From: Rhodococcoides fascians A25f
GTDB taxonomy: Bacteria > Actinomycetota > Actinomycetes > Mycobacteriales > Mycobacteriaceae
Direction of reading: 5' to 3'
Assembly (NCBI RefSeq): GCF_000760935.2
Contig: NZ_CP049744.1
Location: 2,759,501-2,823,500 of the forward strand
DNA length: 64,000 nucleotides
The notes beneath the pieces are model-generated. The model ran no database searches, was not told where the DNA came from, and saw nothing but the letters and a program-made list of their open reading frames with translations. Below are positions 1,406-3,189 of this stretch, piece after piece (position 1 is the first letter of the stretch; each line of letters starts with the position of its first letter). The translations under genes were made by a program, and so were the position numbers.

Positions 1406-2668
1406 CTACGGCGCTGTCGTCACTGCAATTCCCTCGCGGATGAGTCTGCGCGCAACCACCAGCGCATCGTCGAGGTCGAGGCCCGGCATCGAATCGAGGC
1501 GGCACGGAGCGCCCTTCATCAGGCTCTCGATCGCGTCGGCGCATTGAGACGGCAGCGTGACCGTTTTGTTCCGAAGCACCATCGAGACGCCGTCCTTCGT
1601 GTGCGCGATCCGCGCGAAGATGCCGGGCCGCAATCGAATCGAATCCTCGCCCCGTAACGCACCCATCGCGGCGACGCTCGTCAGCGGGCGCACCGGTTCC
1701 GGTCGCACGAGGTCGTCGTGACGATCTGCGACGCGTTCGGCGAGTCGGCGTACTGCGTCGGGGTCTCGGTCGATCTCGTCGAGCGCGGCGCGCATCGCGT
1801 CGACAACTCGGTGTACGTGCGGAACGATGGAATTCGGGTCGGAGTGGTCGAGGCCGGCGGGGAGGGGAGCACGCAGACTCTCGACGTCGCCGAGCGCTTT
1901 CAGCACGTGGTGGGCGAGGTCGTAGTCGTTGTACGACGCGACGCCGATGGTCAGGTGCACGGTGGTGTCGCCGAGCGCTTGCGCCGAGTGGATCCACCCG
2001 CGCGGTAGGTAGAGCACGTCGCCGGGCTCGAGGACGATGTCCAGTTCGGGAGTGTTCGATGCGTGGTCTTCGACGGCCGACCGTCGGTCCGACCACGGTT
2101 GATTGTTGAGTGGATGCACGTGCACCGGCGAGTGAATGCTCCACCGCTTGGTGCCTGCGATCTGCACGACGAACACATCGTGTACGTCGTAGTGCGGCGA
2201 AAAGCCTTGCGACGCAGCCGGTGTGACATACGAATTGACCTGCACCGGATGGCCCAGCTCGCGAACGAGGTCACCGACGAAATGAATCAGCGGGGGCCAC
2301 AGTCGATGCAGGCCCTGAAGTACCAGCGTATTTCCGGCCGCGAAGGCCGCCAGCACCGCTGCGGAGTCGACCTGGTCCTTCACCTCGGCACCGAAACCGC
2401 CGGACGACGTGAACTGCGACTTGTCCAGCAGGCGGCCGTCTTTGGCCATTCGCACGAACGGAGTGCGTACTCCGCGTTCGGAGATCAGCTCGTCGACCGC
2501 ATCGAGCGTCATCAAATCGTCGAACGAGTCCGAGAGATCAGCGGATCTGGTCAGCTTGGGAGCAACGCCCCAGAACCGATCCGAGAACGTCCCGAGGTCG
2601 ATACCGGTGAGACGACGGAGCGCGGACCGGTGACCCGATCCGCGCTCGCCGCTCAGCTCAGTGCTCAA
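1406..2668 (-). CDS. JmjC/cupin-fold oxygenase (ribosomal-oxygenase-like)
   Basis: Predicted Fe(II)/2-oxoglutarate-dependent hydroxylase of 420 residues. The cupin core has the metal-binding facial triad HxD at His159-Tyr-Asp161 and a distal His227 in the LPRGWIHSA context, with Lys174 (GTKRW) placed as a 2-oxoglutarate ligand. The arrangement resembles the bacterial YcfD/RoxA and human MINA53/NO66 ribosomal oxygenases, which hydroxylate Arg or His side chains of proteins. The C-terminal ~150 residues resemble the winged-helix tail of that family. The start is TTG at 2668-2666, and its last two bases are the first two of the TGA stop of the upstream repeat-peptide gene (TTGA), so translation is probably coupled. 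No separate ribosome binding site is seen. I infer that the repeat peptide is a candidate substrate. A housekeeping ribosomal-protein hydroxylase is the alternative. Confidence 0.85.
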   Translation of the reverse strand: MSTELSGERGSGHRSALRRLTGIDLGTFSDRFWGVAPKLTRSADLSDSFDDLMTLDAVDELISERGVRTPFVRMAKDGRLLDKSQFTSSGGFGAEVKDQVDSAAVLAAFAAGNTLVLQGLHRLWPPLIHFVGDLVRELGHPVQVNSYVTPAASQGFSPHYDVHDVFVVQIAGTKRWSIHSPVHVHPLNNQPWSDRRSAVEDHASNTPELDIVLEPGDVLYLPRGWIHSAQALGDTTVHLTIGVASYNDYDLAHHVLKALGDVESLRAPLPAGLDHSDPNSIVPHVHRVVDAMRAALDEIDRDPDAVRRLAERVADRHDDLVRPEPVRPLTSVAAMGALRGEDSIRLRPGIFARIAHTKDGVSMVLRNKTVTLPSQCADAIESLMKGAPCRLDSMPGLDLDDALVVARRLIREGIAVTTAP

Positions 2669-2922
2669 GCGGTGCCGTCCGCACCGCCGTCGTGCCCGTT
2701 GGGGTTGGATCCGCCGTCGGCCGGGCCTTCGCCTGCTCCGGCGGGGCCGTCTGCTCCGCCGTCATGGCCGTCGGGGTTGGATCCGCCGTCGGCCGGGCCT
2801 TCGCCTGCTCCGGCGGGGCCGTCTGCTCCACCGTCGTGACCGCCCGGGTTGGATCCGCCGTCAGCAGGCCCTTCGCCTGCGGCTCCGCCCGTGGTGGTGA
2901 TGTCGTCGTCGTTGATGCTCAT
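2665..2922 (-). CDS. Small Asp/Gly-rich repeat peptide (three 24-residue repeats), candidate oxygenase substrate
   Basis: An 85-residue protein with a 15-residue head (MSINDDDITTTGGAA) followed by three near-identical 24-residue units of the form GEGPADGGSNPxGHDGG plus ADGPAGA, starting at residues 16, 40 and 64. The one residue that clearly varies is x in NPxG (Gly, Asp, Asn). Each unit has exactly one His (29, 53, 77). There is no Cys, no membrane segment and no signal peptide. The chosen ATG has a strong GGAAGG site 6 bases upstream; an upstream in-frame ATG at 2973 has no such support. The stop overlaps the TTG start of the JmjC-type oxygenase. I do not recognise the family. The layout is like a modified-peptide precursor followed by its modifying enzyme, but this is inference. 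Confidence 0.75.
   Translation of the reverse strand: MSINDDDITTTGGAAGEGPADGGSNPGGHDGGADGPAGAGEGPADGGSNPDGHDGGADGPAGAGEGPADGGSNPNGHDGGADGTA
2679..2894. repeat. 72-bp direct tandem repeat, three copies, within the small peptide gene
   Basis: The string TTGGATCCGCCGTC recurs at 2705, 2777 and 2849, exactly 72 bases apart, with almost all intervening bases conserved between the copies. The period is 24 codons, so the repeat keeps the frame of the minus-strand peptide gene. The near identity at DNA level suggests recent duplication, and copy number may vary between strains. The outer boundaries given are approximate. Confidence 0.9.
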
Positions 2923-2975
2923 CGAGATCCTTCCGGTCGTGGAGGTTCGTGTGCCCGCGCGGCGCGAGAACATCG

Positions 2976-3024: not shown

Positions 3025-3189
3025 TCAGTCGGAGTCTTCGGCGATCTCGGGCGCATTCTCACGTGTCGCCATCCCGCCGCCGCCCCCGCCGTCCACGGGT
3101 CCGGGTCGCCCACCCTTCGGCGAATCCGACGTGGTCGATTCCTTGTTGTCGGTCGGTGTCTCGTCGCCGGCGTTCTCTGTGCGTCCCAT
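3025..3189 (-). CDS. Possible small hypothetical protein, 54 residues
   Basis: An ATG-initiated frame of 54 residues, hydrophilic and low in complexity, with a Thr/Asp/Glu/Ser-rich first half, a central run of six glycines (VDGGGGGGMAT) and an acidic end (EIAEDSD). No ribosome binding site is visible before the ATG, so translation would have to be leaderless. It lies upstream of and on the same strand as the repeat peptide gene, separated by 102 bases, and is divergent from idi. I do not recognise it. It may be a real small gene or chance coding in G+C-rich DNA. Confidence 0.35.
   Translation of the reverse strand: MGRTENAGDETPTDNKESTTSDSPKGGRPGPVDGGGGGGMATRENAPEIAEDSD

Follow-up and report, generated by a model that had tools for sequence, protein, structure and literature searches.

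A repeat peptide rich in aspartate and its partner JmjC oxygenase in Rhodococcoides fascians suggest a minimal RiPP-like system of Actinomycetota

We analysed a stretch of 64,000 nucleotides from Rhodococcoides fascians A25f (assembly GCF_000760935.2, contig NZ_CP049744.1, positions 2,759,501 to 2,823,500), here called the window, in which a gene for a small repeat peptide overlaps the gene for a predicted Fe(II)- and 2-oxoglutarate-dependent JmjC oxygenase (Table 1). With somewhat more confidence than doubt, we propose that the two genes form a minimal system like those that make ribosomally synthesised and post-translationally modified peptides (RiPPs), in which the peptide would be a precursor gripped by a domain of the oxygenase that resembles a RiPP recognition element (RRE), and in which aspartate residues of its core would be hydroxylated by the JmjC enzyme. 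A preliminary description, made from the sequence alone, had already read the pair as a precursor with its tailoring enzyme and had placed one modified histidine in each repeat; the first idea gains support from the RRE-like C-terminus, a shared leader and the conserved pairing of the genes, and the second gives way to aspartate. The features from which it started, namely three 24-residue repeats with one histidine each, a strong ribosome binding site and an overlap of the peptide stop codon with the TTG start of the oxygenase, are all present, the third repeat being cut to 22 residues.

The pairing of the two genes was examined in a near-kin set comprising the best 80 loci (L003-L082), out of a larger number of matches, from a scan that used the oxygenase only. 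Pairing was scored where an Asp-rich, Arg-free open reading frame (ORF) ends near the oxygenase start, and such a frame is found at 78 of the 78 evaluable loci (L082, which begins on a contig edge, and L047, which is partly masked, being set aside). The preliminary description had proposed to check whether the peptide always takes this place directly before the oxygenase. Loci chosen in other ways give the same picture, the frame being present at 27 of 27 loci selected by the peptide (the window's own included), at 26 of 26 selected by the JmjC domain (including three with irregular peptides), and at 13 of 16 from a phylum scan in which L242 was not evaluable and the 25 weaker of 55 matches were left out; the three exceptions (L239, L241 and L244) do carry Asp repeats, interspersed with Arg. 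Of 2239 positions drawn at random from all these loci, 45 pass the criterion. In a sample of 394 Actinomycetes genomes, the peptide profile is positive in 45, and all 45 have a match to the JmjC family PF08007 on the same strand, at most about 1 kb downstream (coordinates compared by eye). Both samples thus show what is expected of a RiPP locus, a gene that may encode a precursor standing beside a modifying enzyme.

PF08007 itself is commoner, occurring in 144 of the 394 genomes, and its members outside the 45 mostly belong to other JmjC groups. Orthologues recognised by the oxygenase profile at E ≤ 1e-60 are confined to 66 genomes, which by eye comprise the 45 above, 17 with a clear but divergent Asp repeat, three with irregular Asp-containing peptides (G081/L154, G273/L151 and G354/L149) and one in which the gene lies at a contig edge (G097, not fetched). 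The preliminary description would have been contradicted by homologues that lack the peptide in most genomes; within the orthologue group this is not the case, whereas PF08007 genes further from it often have no such neighbour. The best relatives of the window are in Rhodococcus strains, R. fascians-like ones included, and orthologues extend to other classes of the phylum. This constant association with a peptide gene argues for a substrate other than a ribosomal protein.

The oxygenase belongs with the NO66/MINA53/YcfD group. Its PF08007 match is strong (6.4e-30, 103.7 bits against a curated cut-off of 22), its sequence matches solved structures of NO66, MINA53, YcfD and their relatives, and its predicted fold has a JmjC domain, a helical dimerisation domain and a C-terminal winged helix within a single chain, so that sequence and fold comparison both bear out the kinship named in the preliminary description. 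The HxD...H metal site, there called intact, is invariant (H159, D161 and H227) across 28 aligned oxygenases, the window's included, as are N145, Y147 and K174, which we take to match the 2-oxoglutarate residues of NO66. NO66/RIOX1, MINA53/RIOX2 and YcfD/RoxA share with the window enzyme the PF08007 core, the HxD...H motif and the fold of the whole chain with its winged helix at the C-terminus, although identity in structural alignments is only about 15-25%. These enzymes act on ribosomal proteins; the window oxygenase, in contrast, has in the product of the overlapping peptide gene its likely substrate. One oxygenase match (G274:C1:60589-61221) covers no more than the initial half of the profile (7-217 of 407) in a genome that still has its peptide match, and is possibly a truncated or broken copy.

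The peptide has three units of the form GEGPADGGSNPxGHDGGADG beginning at residues 16, 40 and 64, a spacing of exactly 24. That its gene is no chance frame follows from 169 protein database matches at E ≤ 0.01 (the best at 5e-23) and from codon differences that are mostly synonymous: compared with six near relatives, 11-18 of its codons are changed synonymously and 1-6 non-synonymously (raw counts, not normalised for sites), and the three units of the window peptide differ among themselves by 5-9 synonymous and 1-2 non-synonymous changes. Named homologues include proteins of Mycobacterium, Leifsonia, Salinispora, Phytohabitans and Actinoplanes; the one from Leifsonia poae (P0014) bears the database name 'BatC protein'. 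The 4-nucleotide overlap with the oxygenase gene recurs in many orthologous loci. Repeat number varies, as had been proposed for checking, with three units in 68 of the 78 near-kin peptides, two in nine and one in one. Ahead of the repeats, 57 of these 78 peptides start exactly with M-x-I/L-x-DDD-I/M-TT and most of the remaining ones deviate slightly. The segment is traceable as L-x-D/E-D/E-DI-x-T in several distant orthologues, and most divergent peptides retain the form L/I-x-D/E-D/E-DI-x-T while their cores differ, a combination of conserved leader and more variable core as in RiPP precursors.

We infer from these observations that the small gene would encode a precursor with an acidic leader, M-x-I/L-x-DDDITT, ahead of a repetitive core in which Asp-Gly and Asp-Ala abound, and that the leader would be gripped by the C-terminal winged helix of the oxygenase. 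Modelled in isolation (predicted local distance difference test score, pLDDT, 88.1), this domain resembles RiPP recognition elements: its best Foldseek matches after the ribosomal oxygenases are TruD, PqqD, the PbtF RRE, ThcOx, TbiB1, lasso B1, McbB and MccB. With the RRE-like domain, the precursor reading goes beyond guesswork, and it is this domain, the leader kept while cores vary and the variable repeat number that favour it. Two observations weigh on the other side. Rv2067c, GdmN and NovN, none of which is a ribosomal oxygenase or an RRE, reached scores close to that of PqqD, weakening the RRE assignment, and an obvious DDDI leader is absent from a few divergent peptides (e.g. L104, L112 and L140).

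Which residue would be modified is suggested by the composition of the cores. Among the 223 repeats of the 78 near-kin peptides, Asp14 and Asp18 of the unit are present in all 223 and Asp5 in 222, Asn occupies position 9 in 220, and His is found in 219. In other homologues, the place of His is taken by Gln, Asn, Arg or Lys, and at still greater distance the unit as such is lost. Long (ADGG)n runs occur in L143 and L158, the latter having no His at all; the core of L140 is made of His-free EGPADGGAEGTPGVQDGGADGG units; and the His-free cores of distant orthologues also include DGTDGDATDG. Outside the class, cores are of the DADAADADASDA or DGTDGDATDGTDG kind, and those of L229-L232, L234-L236, L238 and L241 are free of His, L233 having two and L237 one. 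What stays constant across divergent cores is Asp amid small residues. Because Asp persists where His is replaced or missing, hydroxylation of Asp appears the preferable chemistry. FIH and AspH hydroxylate Asp or Asn at the β-carbon. With Fe(II), O2 and 2-oxoglutarate, the oxygenase would, by analogy, most likely place a hydroxyl group on the β-carbon of core Asp residues, more than once per repeat.

Other explanations can be given for the same pair of genes. The peptide might be the substrate and its Asp residues oxidised, with backbone cleavage or a cross-link as the outcome in place of stable hydroxylation. Iron oxygenases bring about either outcome in other RiPPs, an HEXXH enzyme oxidatively cleaving the peptide backbone in one of them (PMC12636437), and we found no protease gene widely shared near the pair (80 loci, 5 kb, ORF calling of low sensitivity). 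The HEXXH precedent, however, comes from a different enzyme family, and nothing in the sequence points directly to such an outcome, which we regard as rather unlikely. Slightly less probable still is an accessory role, in which the peptide would serve as an acidic chaperone, an iron carrier or an inhibitor while the oxygenase acts on another protein. A low-complexity acidic repeat would suit that role, the gene overlap suggests matched production, and the oxygenase has the fold of the ribosomal-protein hydroxylases; nevertheless, a conserved leader with diverging cores, a variable number of repeats and an RRE-like domain are more in keeping with a precursor. As to the single His per repeat, which the oxygenase might hydroxylate just as MINA53 and NO66 modify ribosomal proteins, its presence in nearly all near-kin repeats and the fact that the nearest folds are those of two His hydroxylases speak for the choice made in the preliminary description, but we now consider it improbable given the substitutions in other homologues and the identical gene order at loci with His-free cores (L140, L158, L229-L232 and others). 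Finally, that the small ORF is only a coupled regulator of oxygenase translation and the enzyme an ordinary ribosomal oxygenase, an idea to which the TTGA overlap here and at many loci lends itself, is very hard to reconcile with the large excess of synonymous over non-synonymous changes in the peptide, with homologous peptides in many families and with an estimated intergenic gap of up to 158 nucleotides (L064).

Table 1. Features of the oxygenase and repeat peptide genes, in window coordinates (aa, amino acids; nt, nucleotides).
Feature	Position	Strand	Remark
JmjC (PF08007) Fe/2-oxoglutarate oxygenase, 420 aa, TTG start	1406..2668	(-)	
C-terminal winged-helix domain, residues 335-420, RRE-like	1409..1666	(-)	fold predicted for domain alone
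H227, third metal ligand	1988..1990	(-)	invariant in 28-sequence alignment
HYD, residues 159-161, two metal ligands	2186..2194	(-)	invariant in 28-sequence alignment
TTGA overlap of oxygenase TTG start and peptide TGA stop	2665..2668	(-)	sequence
Repeat peptide gene, candidate precursor	2665..2922	(-)	ATG to TGA, 85 aa
Repeat 3, 22 aa, GEGPADGGSNPNGHDGGADGTA	2668..2733	(-)	
Repeat 2, 24 aa, GEGPADGGSNPDGHDGGADGPAGA	2734..2805	(-)	
Repeat 1, 24 aa, GEGPADGGSNPGGHDGGADGPAGA	2806..2877	(-)	
Leader-like segment MSINDDDITT	2893..2922	(-)	kin-peptide comparison
Shine-Dalgarno-like GGAAGGA	2928..2934	(-)	5 nt ahead of peptide ATG; read from sequence

A third gene accompanies the pair in most relatives. 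A gene for a Suc_Fer-like protein (PF06999, which the L027 copy matches at E 1.8e-16) comes next after the oxygenase in the same orientation at 64 of the 80 near-kin loci, and it was not found beside the pair at L003-L015, L026, L048 (with 1265 nucleotides of contig left) and L071. Among the 45 peptide-bearing class genomes, adjacency is seen in 37 by hand count and not in G000, G118, G095, G196, G046, G079, G093 and G253, the contig of the last ending 1.1 kb past the oxygenase. The Rhodococcus loci L003-L015, among them the window's nearest relatives, do not have the gene beside the pair, yet the other Rhodococcus loci L016-L023 do, which suggests that the window's subclade lost it at this locus. 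The genome of the window holds just one PF06999 gene, elsewhere (G000:C1:334464), and we rejected it as the third gene since it scores 175 on the operon profile, compared with 399-456 for the L016-L023 copies. As a result, peptide and oxygenase make up the minimal unit. The PF06999-like frames keep a CX8C motif; of the 111 in which the full motif could be located, 108 have H-x-GG-D, and a further 45 frames gave no match (the loci overlap); the distant paralogue in the window's genome likewise has H-x-GG-D. The accessible part of PMC8482512 describes Apd1 and Aim32 as [2Fe-2S] thioredoxin-like ferredoxins with the ligand motif CX8C...HX3H. The third gene has PF06999 and CX8C in common with them, but the HX3H of Aim32 is mostly replaced by H-x-GG-D. 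We take its product to be a thioredoxin-like protein with probable iron-sulphur ligands, and it may aid redox or iron supply where it is present. Neither this gene nor the RRE-like domain had figured in the preliminary description.

No other cluster on the sense strand within 5 kb of the 80 loci occurs in more than 4 of 20 genera, in a screen of low sensitivity, given that its ORF calling picked up the Suc_Fer gene at no more than 29 loci. One antisense cluster (13 loci, 9 genera) overlies the Suc_Fer gene and looks like its shadow. The repeat peptide gene is closely preceded, on its own strand (window 3025-3189 (-)), by a second small ORF of 54 amino acids (MGRTENAG...DSPKGGRPGPVDGGGGGGMATRENAPEIAEDSD), which a pattern search of the loci finds only in the window's genome, L003-L007 and L009. 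NCBIfam gives no match for the oxygenase, the repeat peptide or this upstream ORF, and Pfam gives none for the two small frames.

More distant JmjC genes often have small peptide genes of another kind. Among 33 distinct lower-scoring JmjC loci (profile scores 80-193), a second peptide type precedes the JmjC gene in at least 18 (by eye, not all being read closely). It has an LVVAVEEIxxxRxR-like leader and a core like SDGGGTGRSDxND or SRDITAGGDSDGTDGSSDFI, in which Asp-Gly and Asp-Asn recur, and is possibly a sister precursor family. Peptides with this leader and a core of the SDGGGTGRSDxND or TDGTDGSS kind are found at L114-L117, L119, L128, L130, L139, L155, L168, L169, L171 and L173-L178; L126, L145 and L161, in contrast, show no such peptide. 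A very different small ORF, containing Cys and ending DPSDDCWIVCNPNYCY, precedes the distant JmjC relative at L149 (G354; profile score 218).

JmjC enzymes in RiPP pathways are already known, and the relevant comparisons here are with the accessible parts of three reports. The biphenomycin-type oxygenase BipG hydroxylates ornithine of a ribosomal precursor, adding 16 Da (PMC12707348), and PbsQ is described as a relative of BipG, JmjC or cupin-like (PMC12257519). Like the system proposed here, both combine a JmjC oxygenase with a ribosomal precursor, but their clusters are larger, with genes for a multinuclear non-haem iron-dependent oxidative enzyme (MNIO), radical S-adenosylmethionine (rSAM) enzymes and peptidases, against the two or three genes seen here, and those parts describe no Asp-repeat precursor. 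Fusions of RRE domains to PF08007 have also been noted, the closest bacterial JmjC homologues of fish and algal examples lying in RiPP-like contexts (PMC12710340). The pairing of domains there is the one proposed here, although neither a family of Asp-repeat precursors, nor their leader, nor a Suc_Fer partner is described in the accessible part of that report. In the open literature searched, we found no description of the Asp-repeat precursor, of its leader or of its pairing with a Suc_Fer-like protein, and the repeat strings had no match.

The final product would possibly serve in metal binding. A bolder extension, which we hold to be speculative and doubtful as a whole, is that (ADGG)n- or (DADA)n-like cores give rise across the phylum to poly-(β-hydroxyaspartyl) peptides, many of their aspartates being hydroxylated by a JmjC enzyme that brings its own leader-binding domain; as genetically encoded and tunable metal ligands, they would buffer or sense iron jointly with the Suc_Fer-like iron-sulphur partner. 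Since orthologues occur in 66 of 394 class genomes and in other classes, they may have a basic role, in the sensing of metal, redox state or oxygen. If the proposed system is real, a common and apparently unstudied actinobacterial operon would be a peptide-oxidising system of two or three genes, offering a simple model for substrate choice by JmjC enzymes of the ribosomal oxygenase family. Moreover, it would connect the winged helix of the ribosomal oxygenases with the RREs found in RiPP pathways and would open a route to peptides carrying many hydroxylated aspartates.
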